Source of the DNA: an uncultured Lachnospiraceae bacterium
GTDB taxonomy: Bacteria > Bacillota > Clostridia > Lachnospirales > Lachnospiraceae
Reading direction: 5' to 3'
NCBI GenBank assembly: GCA_902763335.1
Contig: CACWRR010000004.1
Span: 1-64,000, forward strand
DNA: 64,000 nt
The stretch's first letter is position 1. The number at the start of each line of letters is the position of its first letter. The notes under the pieces are model-generated. The model did not search any database. It was not told the DNA's origin and was given only the letters and a program-made list of their open reading frames with translations. Of this stretch, positions 39,674 through 48,203 are shown piece by piece. Both the position numbers and the translations under genes were made by a program.

Positions 39674-41365
39674 TCAATATTTTTCATTAATTTTGCTAAT
39701 CAGTGTCTTGATTTTATCTGCACTCATTGGTTTTCCCAAATAAAATCCCTGAATATTATCGCAATTCATTTTCTTTAAATACTCGTACTGTTCCTTTGTC
39801 TCGACACCTTCAGCCACCGTTTCAAGTCCGAGCTTTTTCACCATCTTTATCACTGCATCAGTGATTATTCCCGTAGACGGGTCCGTAAGCATTGTATCCA
39901 CAAATGCCTTATCTATCTTTAACGTATCTATAGGAATATCCTTCAAATATGAAAGAGATGAGTATCCTGTTCCAAAGTCATCAAGCGATATCTTAAATCC
40001 TCTCTTCCTCAATCTCGAAAGTACATCAATGGTTTTATCAAAGTTTTCAATGAAAACTGACTCTGTTATCTCAATCTCTATATCTGACGGTAAAACATTT
40101 TTGCTGTTTACATACTCTATTAAAATATCAGAGAAATTATTCTCCTTTAACTGAATGGCTGAAATGTTAATAGACATCATGCCATTATAACCATAATTCA
40201 TCTTCCAGTCAACAAAATCATCCAATGCCTGACGTATTACCCACTGGCCTATATCTACTATACAACCGTTTTTCTCGGCCATCGGTATAAAATCTCCCGG
40301 ATTTATCAGTTCATCTTCGCTTACTTTCCATCTGATAAGTGCCTCAACACCTCTCAATTCATTTTTATCAGCATAATACTGAGGCTGATAATATAATACA
40401 AAATCAAGCTTTTCTACTGCTGCCTTTAATTTTTTCTCAAGTTTGACATTCTTTAAGAATTTTCTTAACATCGATTCTTCAAACACGCTTACCGAATTTT
40501 TGCCGTTTTTCTTTACATTGTACATGGCTATATCCGCACATTTTATCAAATCGTTAGCATTAAGTCCTCCAACAGGATATGTAGCGATTCCGGCACTTAT
40601 GGTAACATATATGTCACTACACTCCTTGATTTTAAAAGGTGACATGAGTTTCATTTTCAAATCATTGTATATTTCCATTATCTCATCTTCACCGGATGCA
40701 TCATATAATGCAATGGCAAATTCATCATTGCTGAATCTTCCGATTTTTACAGTCGGTGACGAATACTCAAGAAGCAGCTTCGCAAACATGATAAGAAGCT
40801 CATCACCTTTTTCATATCCTACAGTATCATTGATAAAATTGTAGTTATCAATATCTATGTACATGACCTGAATTCTGTTAAATCCACCATTTATAGCCTT
40901 TAATATTTCTTTATCCAGACGCTTAATAAAATAATTTCTGTTATAAACACCTGTATCGGCGTCAAAATATGCCATGTACTCTAATTCAATCTGTTTTTCC
41001 TTATCAGAGGTTATATCATGAAAAAAACAGAATTTTTCAACAAGCACTCCGTCCTTATCGTATCTGTTGGTTCCTGAATGTGAAATCCATGTTTTCCCAT
41101 CACCTATCCTATATTCTATCTCATAATTTTTCTCCTGCTTTCCAAGAATCCTCTCTATCTTATCCACAAATTTTTTTCGGTCATCCTCGTACACCAGATT
41201 AAGAAAACCGCTCTCATCGTTTTCCATTCCTTTTTCTATGCCGAAAATCTCTCTCCACCTTGCAGATGCAATAACATATCCGCTCTCATAATTAACATAT
41301 CTGAATCCCTCATTTGAATCACTGGATATAAATTCATATAATCCGTTATTATTACCTGTTCCCAT
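39674..41365 (-). CDS. PAS-GGDEF-EAL c-di-GMP signalling protein (degenerate GGDEF)
   Basis: A cytoplasmic signalling protein: a PAS-like domain (about 10-120), a GGDEF-type domain (about 130-290) and an EAL domain (about 300-555). In the GGDEF domain the signature reads SNDEF (in GRFSNDEFAI), so cyclase activity is doubtful. The EAL domain keeps GVEALIRWK, the loop-6 DDFGTGYSSLSYLK and ETVAEGVET, which predict active c-di-GMP phosphodiesterase. The start ATG at 41365 (MGTGNNNG) follows AAAGG by 8 bases; a longer reading to 41404 overlaps the upstream gene. It sits in a run with a two-component system and polyphosphate-type genes. Confidence 0.9.
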   Translation of the reverse strand: MGTGNNNGLYEFISSDSNEGFRYVNYESGYVIASARWREIFGIEKGMENDESGFLNLVYEDDRKKFVDKIERILGKQEKNYEIEYRIGDGKTWISHSGTNRYDKDGVLVEKFCFFHDITSDKEKQIELEYMAYFDADTGVYNRNYFIKRLDKEILKAINGGFNRIQVMYIDIDNYNFINDTVGYEKGDELLIMFAKLLLEYSSPTVKIGRFSNDEFAIALYDASGEDEIMEIYNDLKMKLMSPFKIKECSDIYVTISAGIATYPVGGLNANDLIKCADIAMYNVKKNGKNSVSVFEESMLRKFLKNVKLEKKLKAAVEKLDFVLYYQPQYYADKNELRGVEALIRWKVSEDELINPGDFIPMAEKNGCIVDIGQWVIRQALDDFVDWKMNYGYNGMMSINISAIQLKENNFSDILIEYVNSKNVLPSDIEIEITESVFIENFDKTIDVLSRLRKRGFKISLDDFGTGYSSLSYLKDIPIDTLKIDKAFVDTMLTDPSTGIITDAVIKMVKKLGLETVAEGVETKEQYEYLKKMNCDNIQGFYLGKPMSADKIKTLISKINEKY

Positions 41366-41381
41366 AGACTCAACCTTTCCC

Positions 41382-41990
41382 TTAATCCATAGCTGCCTGT
41401 TCATCTAATGTATTACTGTATGGAGGAAGGAAATTTGTAATAAAATATTCAGCTTCCTCCATGTTCATACTTTTAACCGCATTTAATGTAGATTCCTGTG
41501 CACTTATAAAATCTGTATTTCCCATATTCTTTTCCTCTATACACTTTATAAGTGCCGAAATCTTGTCGGCAGCTTTTACATACCTGTACAACTCTTTATT
41601 ATTTTCATTTTCATTATATATTTCTTTATAACACTCTCTCAATCCGTCAGGAAGTGCTGTCAAAAGTTTATTGACCGCTGCAGTTTCAACATTTTTATAC
41701 GCCTCTTCTATTCCCGGCTCAAAATATTTTACCGGTGTAGGCATGTCTCCCGTAATTATTTCCGAAGTGTCATGAAACATCGCCATCACCGCTACCTTAT
41801 CCGCATCAATATTTTTTCCAAAATATGTGTTTCCGATAACTACAAGACCATGTGCTATTACCGCAGTCTCGAAGCTATGCTCCGCTATATTTTCCGTTAT
41901 CGTGTTACGCATAAGTCCCCAACGGTTTATAAATTTCATTCTTGAAATCATTGCATAAAAGTTTTTATCATTTTTCTTTTCCATATTCAT
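41382..41990 (-). CDS. HD-domain 5'-nucleotidase (YfbR-like)
   Basis: A 202-residue HD hydrolase resembling YfbR, a deoxyribonucleoside 5'-monophosphatase. It shows NIAEHSFETAVIAH (about 27-40) and AMFHDTSEIITGDMPTPVK (about 66-84), the characteristic HD_3 motif with the DMPTPVK tail. The specificity for dNMP is inferred from the family. The start could be M1 or M3 (MEKKND). It lies between the DUF4956 gene and the GGDEF-EAL gene. Confidence 0.88.
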   Translation of the reverse strand: MNMEKKNDKNFYAMISRMKFINRWGLMRNTITENIAEHSFETAVIAHGLVVIGNTYFGKNIDADKVAVMAMFHDTSEIITGDMPTPVKYFEPGIEEAYKNVETAAVNKLLTALPDGLRECYKEIYNENENNKELYRYVKAADKISALIKCIEEKNMGNTDFISAQESTLNAVKSMNMEEAEYFITNFLPPYSNTLDEQAAMD

Positions 41991-41996
41991 CCCACA

Positions 41997-42689
41997 CTAT
42001 AACATTTCATCAGCCGTTTCATCTCTGCATATTACTATATTCAGATTACCGTTTCTGCATCTGATCTCATCTATAAATGCCTTCTCATCTGCATCGCTCT
42101 TCATCCTGATGGTATATGTAAGTTCATAAAGTGAACCCATATTTGTCGTTCTCACCTTATCAAGTCTCACGCTTTTTGAATACTGTTCAAAAAGATCATC
42201 AAACGCTCCCTGATAGTTCATATTCTCCGGTATCATAATTCTTAATATTTTTGTTTCGGTTCTGACTGAACCATAACCTGTTCTTCTCAATATAAAATAT
42301 ACTGCACCTATAATAACTGTACACATAATTGCAAAATTGATATATCCGAGTCCTGCTGCAAGTCCCACTGACATTGCAAAAAACACACTTGATATATCCT
42401 TTGAATTTCCCGGAAGACTTCTGAATCTTACGAGTGCAAAAGCCCCTGCTATTGAAAATGCTCTGGCTATATTGCTGCCTACAAGCATAATAACAACTGC
42501 CACCACTGCCGGTAAAATCACAAGTGAAAATGCAAAATTTGCTGAACATTTTTTATCCTTATCACTGTATATGTAAATAAGGCTGATAACTAACCCCAGA
42601 ACCAGTGCAACAAGAATCGAAATCACTGCCGTCTGATATGACACTGACACTCCCTGGTCTGCTGTTGCTGAAAATACTGTATCTAACAT
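41997..42689 (-). CDS. DUF4956 membrane protein
   Basis: A 230-residue protein with four or five membrane helices in the first 135 residues (including the strongly conserved AFSIAGAFALVRFRSLPGN) and a soluble C-terminal ~90-residue domain. DUF4956 proteins are usually next to VTC-domain proteins, as here, and are thought to act with them in polyphosphate formation or transport. Its ATG overlaps the stop of the VTC gene by 7 bases, which shows translational coupling. Confidence 0.9.
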   Translation of the reverse strand: MLDTVFSATADQGVSVSYQTAVISILVALVLGLVISLIYIYSDKDKKCSANFAFSLVILPAVVAVVIMLVGSNIARAFSIAGAFALVRFRSLPGNSKDISSVFFAMSVGLAAGLGYINFAIMCTVIIGAVYFILRRTGYGSVRTETKILRIMIPENMNYQGAFDDLFEQYSKSVRLDKVRTTNMGSLYELTYTIRMKSDADEKAFIDEIRCRNGNLNIVICRDETADEML

Positions 42690-43426
42690 AGTATGTCCTC
42701 CTGTTTTTTCATTTTTTTCTTTATATAATTTGTATACTCAGTCCCATACTTTGAAAATGAGGTTCTGAATAAACCATTCTCATTTAAAATATTAATAAGC
42801 CACAGCGGATATGAATTAACTACTTTTATCTCCATAAGCCACTTATCATTATCAAGAAGATATTCTCCCGTATCATCACTGTCAAGCCTCAGATTCTCTC
42901 TTCTTGTTCTGATATTTTTATCAAATGTTATTCTGAGTTCAGGATTATCCTTGCAGAATAATGCCGCCCTGTCATAAGCAAGAAACAGCTTTGGAACTGT
43001 CTTATAATGTTTCATAAAATATTCCAGTTCGTTCATAACCTGCCTGTTCATATAATCCTCATATGCCGGCTGCTCGTATGTTGATGCAAACTCATACGCC
43101 TCATCAAGCTTTAACACTGTACGCCTTTTATTGACAACACCCTTGTATTTTTTCTTAATCTCTAAGAATACCTTGGTATCGTGCTCTGCCCTTCCATAAC
43201 TTCTCAGCCTTAATTTTTCTTTATATACTGGTTTTTCTATCGACTTTCTTATAAGTTCATCCGTATCCGTATCATAATATATATTACAGATTGTATAGAA
43301 TCCGCCCTCTGCACTGAAGCCGTCTTCATACATGTATTCTTTCAACTGTTCCCTTAGCTTTATATATGTTTCATTATTGATCATATATTTATGCTCAACC
43401 CTGCTGAATACTTCTATCGCTGCCAT
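42683..43426 (-). CDS. VTC-domain protein (polyphosphate polymerase-like)
   Basis: Matches the catalytic domain of yeast Vtc4, which makes polyphosphate from ATP inside a tunnel lined by basic residues. Those are visible here: EHKYMIN (about 11), KEKLRLRSYG (about 70), FLEIKKKYKG followed by NKRRT (about 87-102), and WLMEIKVVNSYPLW near the C-terminus (about 200). The bacterial enzyme activity is inferred. It is cytoplasmic and coupled to DUF4956; it lies downstream of a two-component system, which may control it. Confidence 0.9.
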   Translation of the reverse strand: MAAIEVFSRVEHKYMINNETYIKLREQLKEYMYEDGFSAEGGFYTICNIYYDTDTDELIRKSIEKPVYKEKLRLRSYGRAEHDTKVFLEIKKKYKGVVNKRRTVLKLDEAYEFASTYEQPAYEDYMNRQVMNELEYFMKHYKTVPKLFLAYDRAALFCKDNPELRITFDKNIRTRRENLRLDSDDTGEYLLDNDKWLMEIKVVNSYPLWLINILNENGLFRTSFSKYGTEYTNYIKKKMKKQEDILC

Positions 43427-43448: not shown

Positions 43449-44906
43449 TTATAAATTTTCCTGTCGCAGAATCTTTGTCTCAAACCAGAATGTACTTCCC
43501 ATTCCCACAGTACTTCTTACTCCATATTTCATATTATGCATTTTTAAGACCTCTTTTGCAATCGAAAGTCCCATTCCTGTTCCTACAATATTCCGCTTTC
43601 CACCTGCTCTATAATATCTTCTCCATACATTTTCCTGTTCACTCTCAGGTATTCCTTCACCCGTATCTTCAACTTCTATCCTTACCACATCACCATTTAC
43701 AATCTGTCTTACAAACACGCATCCGTCATTTCCGGTGTAATTTATGGCGTTTCCAATCAGATTGTACACAACCTGATATATCTTATATTCATCTGCCTCT
43801 ACATATATCTGCCTGTCATATTCAAACGAAACCATGTATCCATATGGCTCAACCATCTTACATATCCTGCCAACTACTGAACTTATACTCGCAGTGATAT
43901 CATACTCATCACTCTCAAGTTCATTCACTCCGGCACTTATTCTTGATGCATCAAGCAGCTCGTTTACAAGTGTGGTAAGCCTGGTGGTTTCATCTATAAT
44001 AACCTGAATATTCTCAGGTGTATTTTCACCGGGTATATCCCTCATTACCTCTGCATATCCTGCTATCATGGTAAGGGGTGTTCTCAAATCATGGGATACG
44101 TTTGCTATAAGTTCTCTTTGGAGTACATCTATTCTTGCCAGTTTTACCGCTGCATGATTAAGCGTATCCGACAATCCGGCTATCTCCTTATAATCTCTTC
44201 CTTCAAACGAAACATCATAATTACCCTCTGCAAGTTCATTTGCAGTCACACTTATATTGACTAATGACTTTGTAACTCTCCTTGATATGATAAATGACAG
44301 ACAAAATGACAGTATAACCATAATAACCGACACATATACAAGCTGCACCCTCAGAGTATGAACCGTGGCCTTTACCGGTGTAATGGCTGATTCCATAAGA
44401 ACCATGACTTTCCCATTATTACCAGATTTCACGATATTTGAAAATAACACGCTCTCCATGCCTGTTTCAGATGATGCATCAGCAGACCCGCTATAATCCA
44501 CAGTGACATCCATATCAATATTTTTATCCATAACATTCATTTCATAACAGTTGTTATACTTTTCTGTTTTTTCATATAATTTTCTTATATCTGTTACAGA
44601 AAGTGTATGTATGTTACAGCCTCTTGTATCTCTTGATGAATATAAAGTCTCTCCACTGTCATTAACAATCATTATGCATATGTCGTATTCGTCAGCCAGT
44701 TTATTAATTCTGGCTGAAATATTATTGTCATCAATATTTTTCAATATTTTATTCCGGACAGTACCAAGATCATCTTTTCGTATTTTTTTATAAAAGCTGT
44801 CAAGATAAACAGTCTGTAAAAACCACAAAATAACAAGAAGCAATGCGTTAAATAAAATCAGATACCCAAAGAGACTCCATTTAATACTCAGTTTTTCACG
44901 CTTCAA
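43449..44906 (-). CDS. Sensor histidine kinase
   Basis: A membrane sensor kinase of 485 residues. Two membrane helices (about 12-32 and 185-205) flank a ~150-residue extracellular sensor domain. Then come HAMP (about 205-257), the dimerisation domain with VSHDLRTPLTMIAGYAEVM (His about 269), and the ATPase domain with NLIGNAINYTG, VEDTGEGIPE and GMGLSIAKEVLKMH. It starts at a TTG (44906) in the end of its response regulator gene, overlapping by 11 bases. The signal is unknown. Confidence 0.93.
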   Translation of the reverse strand: MKREKLSIKWSLFGYLILFNALLLVILWFLQTVYLDSFYKKIRKDDLGTVRNKILKNIDDNNISARINKLADEYDICIMIVNDSGETLYSSRDTRGCNIHTLSVTDIRKLYEKTEKYNNCYEMNVMDKNIDMDVTVDYSGSADASSETGMESVLFSNIVKSGNNGKVMVLMESAITPVKATVHTLRVQLVYVSVIMVILSFCLSFIISRRVTKSLVNISVTANELAEGNYDVSFEGRDYKEIAGLSDTLNHAAVKLARIDVLQRELIANVSHDLRTPLTMIAGYAEVMRDIPGENTPENIQVIIDETTRLTTLVNELLDASRISAGVNELESDEYDITASISSVVGRICKMVEPYGYMVSFEYDRQIYVEADEYKIYQVVYNLIGNAINYTGNDGCVFVRQIVNGDVVRIEVEDTGEGIPESEQENVWRRYYRAGGKRNIVGTGMGLSIAKEVLKMHNMKYGVRSTVGMGSTFWFETKILRQENL

Positions 44907-45564
44907 ATCTGTATCCGACTCCTCTTAATGTTACGAGAAATTTTCTGTATTCTCCCAGATTATTTCTCAAAAGCTTTATATGTGTATCAAGTGTTCTGTC
45001 ATCTCCAAAATAATCGTATCCCCATACATCATTTATTAATCTGCTTCTTGTGAGTGCTATTCCTCTGTTTTTAACAAAATACTGTAAAAGTTCATATTCT
45101 TTCGGAGTCATGCTTACTGCTTTACCGTCTATGGTCACAACCCGTCCCGTAAAATCAATTTTCAGCCCTTCACGCTCATATATTTCATGTACATTCTCAT
45201 CCGGTTTGTTTCTTGAAATAACTGCTCTTATTCTCATCATAAGCTCTCTCGGTGAAAACGGCTTAACAACATAATCATCAATCCCCATCTCAAATCCGTG
45301 TATTTTATCGTATTCTTCTCCTCTTGCCGATAAAATAATTATCGGGGTCTTTTTTTCTTCCCTGATCTTTTTACATACCGTAAATCCATCCATCTCCGGC
45401 ATCATAATATCAAGTATTATAAGGTCAAATTCCTCATTTTTACATTTTTGAATGGCTTCAACACCATTTGCTGCCTCTTCCATTTTAAATCCCTCAAATT
45501 CCCCATATTTTCTGATAAGTGTTCTTATCTTTTCTTCGTCATCCACAACTAAAATGTTATACAT
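44896..45564 (-). CDS. OmpR-family response regulator
   Basis: A 222-residue regulator with a receiver domain (phosphorylated Asp in LIILDIMMPEMDG, about residue 52, and the K in VVKPFSPREL, about 101) and a winged-helix output domain (about 125-222, ending VRGVGYRFEA-like). It forms a pair with the overlapping kinase. The VTC and DUF4956 genes follow in the same direction, so they are candidate targets. Confidence 0.94.
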   Translation of the reverse strand: MYNILVVDDEEKIRTLIRKYGEFEGFKMEEAANGVEAIQKCKNEEFDLIILDIMMPEMDGFTVCKKIREEKKTPIIILSARGEEYDKIHGFEMGIDDYVVKPFSPRELMMRIRAVISRNKPDENVHEIYEREGLKIDFTGRVVTIDGKAVSMTPKEYELLQYFVKNRGIALTRSRLINDVWGYDYFGDDRTLDTHIKLLRNNLGEYRKFLVTLRGVGYRFEA

Positions 45565-45632: not shown

Positions 45633-45661
45633 TTGAAAAAATCTACAAAATACTATACAAT
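45633..45661 (+). promoter_or_regulatory. Promoter of the CheY/CheX-like pair
   Basis: TTGAAA (45633-45638) and TACAAT (45656-45661) with a 17-base spacer, about 55 bases before the first ATG. It is divergent from the two-component operon. Confidence 0.6.
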
Positions 45662-45715
45662 ATATACATAATATTAATAACAAATTTATTATATCCGCGA
45701 AAGGGGACAATGTCA

Positions 45716-46099
45716 ATGAATATTAAAGATATGAAAGTATTAGTATGCGACGACTCAATACTGTCGCGAAAGAAACTAAAAGACTGCATCATAGCTATCG
45801 GTTGCTCTGAAGTATATGAAGCAGCAGACGGTGAAGAAGCAGTAACAAGATTCAAAGAATATCATCCAGACTTAGTTTTTATGGATATCGTAATGCCAAA
45901 AAAAGATGGTATTGCAGCCGTAACTGAAATACTTGAGGAAGACAAAAATGCCAAAGTCGTAATGGCATCTTCTGTCGGAACACAGTCATTTTTAAAGGAT
46001 GCCATCAAAGCCGGTGCCTACGACTTCCTTCAGAAGCCTTTAGACCCTGAACAGGTTAAACGTATAATCAACAATATTTCATCACAAGGGGGTAACTAA
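45716..46099 (+). CDS. Stand-alone CheY-like receiver protein
   Basis: A 127-residue single receiver domain. The acidic pair is Asp12-Asp13, the phospho-acceptor is Asp57 (VFMDIVMPKKDG), and the conserved Ser and Lys (MASSVGT; FLQKPLD) are present. There is no output domain. AAAGGGG lies 9 bases before the ATG at 45716; an ATG at 45710 is only 3 bases from it. The next gene, an MshEN/CheX-like protein, begins 2 bases after its stop, so the two are probably a phospho-protein and its phosphatase or partner. No chemotaxis kinase or receptor lies nearby. Confidence 0.92.
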   Translation: MNIKDMKVLVCDDSILSRKKLKDCIIAIGCSEVYEAADGEEAVTRFKEYHPDLVFMDIVMPKKDGIAAVTEILEEDKNAKVVMASSVGTQSFLKDAIKAGAYDFLQKPLDPEQVKRIINNISSQGGN

Positions 46100-46101
46100 T
46101 T

Positions 46102-46986
46102 ATGTTTACACAGTTTTTTGGAAATTACTTATTAAATGAAAATCTTGTTACTCCTGAACAGCTTATAGATGGTCTTCAGGCTAAAAAGAACACAAGGATG
46201 AAACTCGGTGTTCTTGCCATCAATGCCGGATATATGACAGCCGGACAGGTTGAGACCGTACATATGAAACAGAGTACAATGGACAAGCGTTTTGGTGATA
46301 TTGCCGTTGAATGTGGATTTGTTACATCTGAACAGATTGATGAACTGTTAAACCAGCAGCCACAGGGTTATCTTCTTCTCGGTCAGGCATTTGTAGATAA
46401 AGGTTATATGACAAACGCACAGTTTGAGGATGCAATCCGTACATATAAAGAAAAATATTCTTTAACAGATGAAGATTTAAATGAAGGCGAAGACGGAAAA
46501 TCTTCTGTAATGGTAGATTCACTTATCGATCTTTCATCAACATCAAATCCTGATCTATACAAAGAATATATTATTCTCCTTATGAATAATCTTATTCGTT
46601 TTACAGGTGATGATTACACTCCTTTAAAACCTGAATTTAACCTTTCAGACAATTCAGAGCTTTACATAACAGTACAGGGAATAAACAACGGATTTGACGT
46701 TGATACTGCTCTCGTTGCTGATGAGGAAACTCTTATACAGTTTGCAAGCCGTTATGCCGATGAATCATTTACTGAAATGAATGAATATGTTGATGCTTCT
46801 GCATGTGATTTTATGAACCTGCACAACGGACTCTTTACTGTTAATATGTCCAATGAAAAAGAACTTGAATTAAAACTTACACCACCATCTACTAAAAAAG
46901 GTATAAATGCTGATGATCATGGAGATGTTATAGTTTTACCTGTACAGTATCCATTTGGAATCGTAAAATTTGTAATCACAAAATAA
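46102..46986 (+). CDS. MshEN-like / CheX-like protein, partner of CheY
   Basis: The first ~115 residues contain two or three repeats of the form LLNENLVTPEQL, LAINAGYMTAGQV, AVECGFVTSEQIDELL and FVDKGYMTNAQF, resembling the MshEN (type II secretion ATPase N-terminal) module, which binds c-di-GMP in some proteins. After an acidic linker (123-148), residues 150-294 resemble CheC/CheX/FliY phosphatases: Asp236-x2-Asn239 followed after 22 residues by Pro262 matches the ExxN-x22-P consensus, with Asp in place of Glu. It probably dephosphorylates or senses the CheY-like protein. The fusion with an MshEN-like part would connect this to c-di-GMP; that is inference. Confidence 0.8.
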   Translation: MFTQFFGNYLLNENLVTPEQLIDGLQAKKNTRMKLGVLAINAGYMTAGQVETVHMKQSTMDKRFGDIAVECGFVTSEQIDELLNQQPQGYLLLGQAFVDKGYMTNAQFEDAIRTYKEKYSLTDEDLNEGEDGKSSVMVDSLIDLSSTSNPDLYKEYIILLMNNLIRFTGDDYTPLKPEFNLSDNSELYITVQGINNGFDVDTALVADEETLIQFASRYADESFTEMNEYVDASACDFMNLHNGLFTVNMSNEKELELKLTPPSTKKGINADDHGDVIVLPVQYPFGIVKFVITK

Positions 46987-46996
46987 GCAATATAAC

Positions 46997-47044
46997 AAAA
47001 AACAGTACATATCGGTCATAAATCCTGATATGTACTGTTTTTTT
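46997..47044. terminator. Strong terminator between convergent genes
   Basis: AACAGTACATATC (47001-47013) pairs perfectly with GATATGTACTGTT (47027-47039), flanked by A-run and T-run. It ends the CheY/CheX pair on plus and the methyltransferase gene on minus. Confidence 0.85.
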
Positions 47045-47045
47045 A

Positions 47046-48203
47046 TTATTTTTTATGTTTTTCAAGCTCCACTACTGTCTCTACACCTACAGTCATCGGA
47101 AACATATCGACCGGTACTGCTCTCTTCATACTGTAACCTCGTTTTGTAATATAGGAAAGATCTCTTGCCAATGTTTCCGGTTCACAGGATACATATACAA
47201 CCTTCTCCGGCGACATTTCTATGACAGAATCCATAAACTCTTCCGTACTGCCTGCCCTCGGCGGGTCCATAAAGACAACATCGCATTTTTCACCTTCTGC
47301 TGCCATATCTTTCATAAATTTTCCCGCATCCGCTTTAATAAATCTTACATTATCGGCTTTGTTCTGCTTTTTATTAATAATCGCATCCTTTATAGCATCT
47401 CCGTTAAGTTCTACACCGACAACTTCCTTTGCATAATCTGCCACCACTATACTTATGGTTCCTATACCGCAATATGCATCTATAACTTTCTCACTTCCTG
47501 TCAGCTTTGCATACTCTATTGCTTTTTTATACAAAATTTCCGTTTGAACCGAATTTACCTGATAAAATGATTTTGGTGATATTCTGAACCGTTTTCCGCA
47601 TAATTCATCTTCTATATATCCTTTTCCATACAGGACAATATTTCTTTCTCCAAGAACCATACTTGTTCTTTTATCATTTATATTCTGAACAATCGTTGTT
47701 ATCTCCGGATGCTGTCTTCTAAGTTCTCTGATAAAGTTATTTTTTGAAGGAAAAATATTGTTTCCCGTAACAAGTACAACGAGTATCTGTCCCGTCAGAT
47801 GTGCAGTTCTGATAAGCACATGTCTTAAAAAACCGTATCCCGTATCCTCATCATACGCCTTAAGCTTAAATGACTTTAACATTTTTCTTATTGTAACAAT
47901 TATCTCGTCTGACTTCTCATTTTCAAGATAGCAGTTGTCAAGATTTACAACTCTGTGGCTTTTTTTCTCATATATTCCCGATATAATATTTCCTTTTCTG
48001 TCATGTGAAAATGCTGCATGAATTTTATTTCTATAATTATACGGATTGTCCATGCCTATTATTTTATCCACTTTTCCATATTTTGAAATAAGCTTTTCAA
48101 CACGCCTTTGTTTTTCTGCAAGCTGCTTATCGTAGTCAAGGTCAAGCAGCTGACATCCGCCGCATTTTTTTGTGACCGGACATTTTATACTTTTATCTGT
48201 CAT
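47046..48203 (-). CDS. rlmD: 23S rRNA (uracil-C5)-methyltransferase (RlmD/RlmCD-like)
   Basis: A TrmA-family RNA m5U methyltransferase. Iron-sulfur cluster cysteines stand at the N-terminus (CPVTKKCGGC, with a later NLDNC). The SAM site is VIDAYCGIGTISIVVA (about 240), DPPRAGS (about 317) follows, and VYVSCEPETLARDL (about 340) holds the catalytic cysteine. The 385 residues lack an N-terminal TRAM domain seen in many relatives. The exact site (U1939 or U747) cannot be fixed from sequence. Confidence 0.88.
   Translation of the reverse strand: MTDKSIKCPVTKKCGGCQLLDLDYDKQLAEKQRRVEKLISKYGKVDKIIGMDNPYNYRNKIHAAFSHDRKGNIISGIYEKKSHRVVNLDNCYLENEKSDEIIVTIRKMLKSFKLKAYDEDTGYGFLRHVLIRTAHLTGQILVVLVTGNNIFPSKNNFIRELRRQHPEITTIVQNINDKRTSMVLGERNIVLYGKGYIEDELCGKRFRISPKSFYQVNSVQTEILYKKAIEYAKLTGSEKVIDAYCGIGTISIVVADYAKEVVGVELNGDAIKDAIINKKQNKADNVRFIKADAGKFMKDMAAEGEKCDVVFMDPPRAGSTEEFMDSVIEMSPEKVVYVSCEPETLARDLSYITKRGYSMKRAVPVDMFPMTVGVETVVELEKHKK

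Follow-up and report, generated by a model that had tools for sequence, protein, structure and literature searches.

A CheY-like receiver paired with an MshEN-CheX protein in chemotaxis-bearing Clostridia: a candidate c-di-GMP-linked phospho-switch

The gene pair and its local setting

The window analysed here, 64,000 nucleotides from an uncultured Lachnospiraceae bacterium, carries two open reading frames separated by a gap of only 2 bases, the first encoding a CheY-like receiver and the second a protein in which MshEN-type repeats are joined to a CheX-like domain. The ORF calls returned the coordinates and the 2-base spacing of the first-pass annotation, and the single promoter and single terminator which it had assigned to the pair could both be located. 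The features of the locus are as follows.

45716..46099, + strand: stand-alone CheY-like receiver ORF, 127 aa (Pfam PF00072, Response_reg, 92 bits)
46102..46986, + strand: MshEN-CheX protein, 294 aa (profiles, model, structure matches)
45633..45661, + strand: sigma-A-like promoter of the pair, TTGAAA-N17-TACAAT (promoter scan; upstream regions of relatives)
47002..47046, + strand: strong intrinsic terminator, a stem-loop (hairpin 47002-47038) followed by a T run (RNA fold -22.8 kcal/mol, z -8.0)
43449-45564, divergent: unit of a HisKA kinase (43449-44906) and an OmpR regulator
45688-45716, - strand: promoter of the divergent regulator, perfect TTGACA-N17-TATAAT (promoter scan)

A comparison of upstream regions showed the promoter hexamers of the pair to be mostly kept in close relatives, e.g. 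L031, L032, L034 and L036, and in our reading the terminator also serves the next, convergent gene. A sigma-28 promoter tying the pair to the flagellar regulon was considered and rejected, the strict sigma-28 pattern being found in 0 of 115 upstream regions (75 + 40). The promoter of the divergent regulator overlaps the ribosome-binding site and the start of cheY, and where close relatives have retained the regulator the arrangement is similar; as a consequence of this overlap, the divergent unit and the pair may interfere transcriptionally. The earlier remark that no flagellar or receptor genes are adjacent holds at the locus itself, but such genes are present elsewhere in the genome. At positions 41382-43426 an HD-domain protein, a DUF4956-like membrane protein and a VTC-like protein, as we read them, lie in a row which adjoins a GGDEF-EAL protein (39674-41404); parts of this order recur in relatives L031-L041.

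The CheY-like receiver and its partner

The stand-alone receiver possesses the key residues D12, D13, D57, S85 and K107, i.e. the Asp-Asp-Asp-Thr/Ser-Lys set expected of a chemotaxis CheY, and in an alignment of 108 CheYs from such pairs the three aspartates and the lysine are invariant and Thr/Ser is retained. A CheY adjoins the MshEN-CheX protein or is fused to it in about 105 of 111 distinct homologues (adjoining in about 98, fused in seven). Of the 70 homologues in the cheY-first sub-family, 67 have the CheY gene immediately upstream, and two of the three exceptions, L075 and L077, sit at contig edges; in a second, phosphatase-first sub-family it lies directly downstream in 31 of 33. The seven fused homologues are single MshEN-CheX-REC proteins of 432-450 aa, a type that is modelled as one confident body (pLDDT 95.4, pTM 0.90). 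The cheY-first group forms one clade in the tree (100/100), as do the fused proteins (100/99), which are nested within the phosphatase-first group. This gene adjacency, together with the seven natural fusions, gives strong support to the proposal that the CheY-like and MshEN-CheX proteins are partners.

Four loci (L097, 9816-10731; L098, 9047-9918; L106; L107) hold a CheY and a CheX-like protein devoid of the MshEN part. Since the CheX-only protein of L097 and L098 takes the usual place next to a threonine-synthase-like gene (the thrC side), with a CheY of the window type, the putative MshEN sensor is a removable module.

The CheX-like domain and its active site

The C-terminal half of the 294-residue protein comprises the following features.

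46549..46983, + strand: CheX/CheC-fold domain, about residues 150-294 (Foldseek; Pfam CheX sub-threshold)
46807..46887, + strand: active-site helix and proline, D236-x2-N239-x22-P262 (translation, 111 homologues)

An AlphaFold2 model of the protein, built on 103 homologues, reached a mean pLDDT of 95.0 and a pTM of 0.88. In Foldseek its C-terminal half matched solved CheX proteins from Desulfovibrio, Vibrio, Shewanella, Thermotoga and Borrelia with E values of 1.4e-9 to 5e-7 and TM scores (target) of 0.65-0.76, 3hm4, 6vpw, 1xko and 3hzh being among them, followed by FliY and CheC; the Borrelia structure is that of CheX in complex with CheY. The predicted structure thus bears out the CheX-like domain assigned in the first-pass annotation, but the Pfam profile (CheX, PF13690) scores 19.6-21.4 bits, below its gathering value of 27, over the correct homologous position range. 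Weak Pfam matches to the fumarase C-terminus, DUF4388 and others were dismissed as chance or repeat artefacts.

The altered active site proposed earlier reads exactly D236-x2-N239-x22-P262 in the translation. N239 is invariant (111/111 homologues), position 236 is occupied by E in 69, D in 39, including the window protein, and N in 3, and the active-site proline (column P261 of the count) is kept in 105 of the 111. It can be rationalized that Asp at position 236 is chemically plausible for catalysis, because CheX requires ExxN and CheZ requires DxxxQ (PMC3510030). One may still ask whether the domain reads CheY~P rather than erases it, i.e. whether CheY~P binds a CheX-like domain of lost or weak phosphatase activity, the complex then serving at motor or pilus as an effector or a phosphate sink that is tuned by c-di-GMP. 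The window protein has A232 and D236 where the sister sub-families retain D-x3-E-x2-N, phosphatase activity is already supplied by CheC and FliY, and the fact that almost all homologues come with a CheY of their own would suit a sink or effector; the invariant N239 and the acid at position 236 in 108 of 111 homologues, with D and E alternating inside one clade, fit retained catalysis, so that we regard such a readout as rather improbable and retain the phosphatase as the preferred reading.

A lone MshEN-CheX homologue without CheY (L100, 7485-8423) was encountered in G070, a genome without CheW and FliM. A K stands where the proline is otherwise conserved, residue 236 is D, and the gene is likely a decaying or repurposed copy.

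The MshEN repeat array

The N-terminal part of the protein is built from tandem repeats.

46114..46446, + strand: four tandem 24+5-residue MshEN-type repeats, residues 5-28, 34-57, 63-86 and 92-115 (NF053729, column counts, Foldseek)
46201-46359, + strand: repeats 2 and 3, residues 34-86, candidate 24-5-24 c-di-GMP unit (residue conservation)

MshEN is built of two motifs of 24 residues with a 5-residue spacer between them, and carries Arg, Gly and Gln as well as clusters of three Leu (PMC5013675). The NCBIfam profile NF053729 ('c-di-GMP motif, MshE-related'), whose cut-off is 38 bits, scores 76.6 bits over residues 6-113, and the N-terminal part of the predicted model aligns with MshE-c-di-GMP (5htl) over 52 columns at 0.9 Å (29% identity, probability 1.00, E 0.12), in agreement with the MshEN-like fold that had been suspected. 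NF053729 itself scores three overlapping units (repeats 1-2, 2-3 and 3-4, at 35.7-42 bits each), and it is residue conservation that makes repeats 2 and 3 the most probable location of a c-di-GMP site. Only these two repeats show R/K..G..Q in both halves, repeats 1 and 4 being without the Arg/Gln, and residues 34-86 can therefore be described as having the MshEN 24-5-24 build, with R/K, Gly and Gln in place. In the columns of the distinct homologues, K/R34 is found in 101/111, Q57 in 109/111, R/K63 in 103/111 and Q86 in 110/111. The hydrophobic triad of one half-site, leucine in MshE, is V50, H54 and F/I64 in the sub-family of the window (F64 in the window protein) and A50, N54 and F64 in the other. 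Owing to this alteration of the first half-site, proteins of the window's sub-family could differ in their affinity for c-di-GMP or in the base that they prefer.

The altered triad, the Arg/Gln missing from repeats 1 and 4, the CheX-only versions in the thrC-side slot and the precedent of XpsE, a known non-binding MshEN relative (PMC5013675), would also suit a protein-interaction or degenerate module that does not bind c-di-GMP, in which case the pair would be an ordinary CheY-CheX pair. This we consider fairly unlikely: K/R34, G36, Q57, R63, G65 and Q86 rank with the best-conserved positions, which would be unexpected had binding been lost, and a c-di-GMP-responsive array remains the preferred reading of the repeats.

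Occurrence with chemotaxis, flagella and pili

Contig C10 of the same genome carries a complete fla/che operon, whose genes were named by reading the translations, with CheW and FliM confirmed by profiles.

Contig C10, operon genes: flgD, flgE, motA, motB, fliL, fliM, fliY, cheY, fliO-R, flhB, flhA, flhF, flhG
Contig C10, further operon genes: PilZ protein, cheB, cheA, cheW, cheC, cheD, sigma-28-like factor

This operon contradicts the non-motile setting envisaged at first, and a non-motile host was accordingly rejected. Given the full operon with a CheY of its own and 17 GGDEF matches in the genome, the bacterium is probably motile and a user of c-di-GMP, and the CheY of the window is its second. 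The genome also encodes a PilB-type ATPase (G000:C79:61-1770, L136) which, by virtue of its own MshEN motif (74 bits), is a second candidate for a c-di-GMP receptor.

Among 200 genomes of the family scanned, 67 contain a relative of the MshEN-CheX gene at E < 1e-10. CheW is present in 66 of these 67, as expected of a chemotaxis CheY, compared with 46 of the 133 without the gene (p = 6e-21 in a test that ignores phylogeny), and FliM in 61 of the 67. A separate scan of the whole collection supplied further genomes, sampled, mostly Oscillospiraceae and not graded by completeness, with CheW in 23/23 and FliM in 18/23; the gene occurs in 13 of 250 genomes sampled across the whole phylum, spread over at least six other families. 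Flagella accompany the cheY-first type in 25 of 26 genomes, with no enrichment of the pilus ATPase PilB, and the other sub-family has PilB in 34 of 41 genomes (p 1e-7, and 1.7e-4 within CheW+FliM+ genomes, both tests ignoring phylogeny).

CheW without FliM was found in seven family genomes, five of which carry the MshEN-CheX gene. In G040 and G147, both CheW+ and FliM-, the CheY of the pair is the only short stand-alone receiver among the matches listed. The usual fla/che site of G120 (L137) and G068 (L138) is without flagellar genes and retains cheA, cheW, cheC, cheD and a cheY; both genomes lack FliM and have a type IV pilus ATPase, and look like cases in which the chemosensory array has survived the loss of flagella and perhaps steers pili. 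From the near-total co-occurrence with CheW, the CheW+/FliM- carriers, the sole short receiver of G040 and G147 and the che genes kept in G120 and G068, CheA appears the likelier phosphate source for the paired CheY than the divergent kinase. The latter had been put forward as a possible feeder, but one pathway in which the HisKA/OmpR unit joins the pair and phosphorylates its CheY is unlikely as a general scheme: the two units have a common promoter region with the perfect TTGACA-17-TATAAT at 45716-45688, and an orthologous regulator (59-80% identity) adjoins the pair in many Lachnospiraceae that branch at different depths (L002, L007, L014, L022, L024, most of L031-L040, L128), yet L004, L035, L041 and the Oscillospiraceae have the pair and lack the adjoining regulator, the kinase already has an OmpR partner of its own, and CheW is nearly always at hand. 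At best, the neighbourhood speaks for a regulatory link of local reach.

Proposed mechanism

The best explanation, and one that we hold to be reasonably probable, is a c-di-GMP-gated CheY~P phosphatase with a dedicated CheY; the c-di-GMP-linked phospho-switch of the first-pass annotation is kept in this form as the preferred reading. Sequence and models provide the MshEN and CheX folds, the conserved key residues including D-x2-N, the CheY partnership and the restriction to chemotaxis-bearing genomes, and to these we add by inference that c-di-GMP is bound, that the CheX-like domain is an active phosphatase, and that CheA is the kinase and the flagellum the output; any sign of control would likewise be inferred. 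CheA of the cell's chemotaxis array would phosphorylate the paired CheY, the CheX-like domain would dock on CheY~P, and its acid-amide pair (D/E236, N239) would hydrolyse the phosphoryl group. The MshEN repeats would take up c-di-GMP, with the site formed in all likelihood by repeats 2 and 3, and the bound nucleotide would alter phosphatase activity or CheY docking, the sign of this effect not being deducible from sequence. Cellular c-di-GMP would thereby determine how long the signal of the second CheY persists, the flagellar motor being its most probable recipient. Counterpoints are the CheC and FliY already present in the genome as CheY phosphatases, the sub-gathering CheX score, the altered first half-site, Asp/Asn at position 236 and the lack of a sigma-28 promoter.

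A bolder and distinctly more tentative proposal sees a widespread chemotaxis branch of Clostridia with a second, dedicated CheY whose phosphatase would be under direct control of c-di-GMP and would have a modified nucleotide half-site, the two sub-families being tuned to different motility organs, cheY-first to flagella, and phosphatase-first or fused to type IV pili and kept where flagella have been lost.

Relation to known systems

The CheX-CheY pair, known from the Borrelia burgdorferi complex and from Thermotoga maritima CheX (3hzh and 1xko, among the top matches), likewise combines the CheX fold, an acid-x2-Asn helix and a CheY partner; here, in contrast, an MshEN array is fused at the N-terminus, about one homologue in three has Asp instead of Glu, and the genes lie outside the flagellar operon. 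CheC and FliY, both encoded in the same genome, belong with the present protein to one phosphatase superfamily (structure matches 4hyn and 1xkr) but differ in length and symmetry, have no MshEN and are encoded within the fla/che operon. With the MshEN receptors MshE and PilB/PilF the protein has in common the 24-5-24 unit with R/K, Gly and Gln, which fits at 0.9 Å over 52 columns; it departs from them in its four tandem repeats with one complete middle unit, in the altered triad, and in an output consisting of a CheX domain and CheY instead of an ATPase. The c-di-GMP-binding, CheY-like Cle proteins of Caulobacter (PMC5677366) are a known case of c-di-GMP acting on the CheY branch of motor control, as is predicted here; in Cle, however, the CheY-like protein itself binds c-di-GMP via a C-terminal Arg-rich extension, whereas the sensor predicted here resides on the phosphatase.

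Wang et al. 2016 (PMC5013675) list the association of MshEN with CheX without giving it a function. A search of the main texts of open papers yielded no description of the CheY pairing, the three-way fusion, the genome-wide tie to chemotaxis or the two sub-families. To our knowledge, crosstalk between c-di-GMP and chemotaxis in Gram-positive gut bacteria is largely an open field. The natural MshEN-CheX-REC fusion offers a single-chain construct for structure and kinetics. If the proposal is true, c-di-GMP and chemotaxis would be linked directly and compactly, by a sensor that is part of the CheY phosphatase itself, in a way testable with two purified proteins, and the conservation of the pair across chemotaxis-bearing gut clostridia suggests that such a link may directly connect c-di-GMP to the control of movement in these bacteria.
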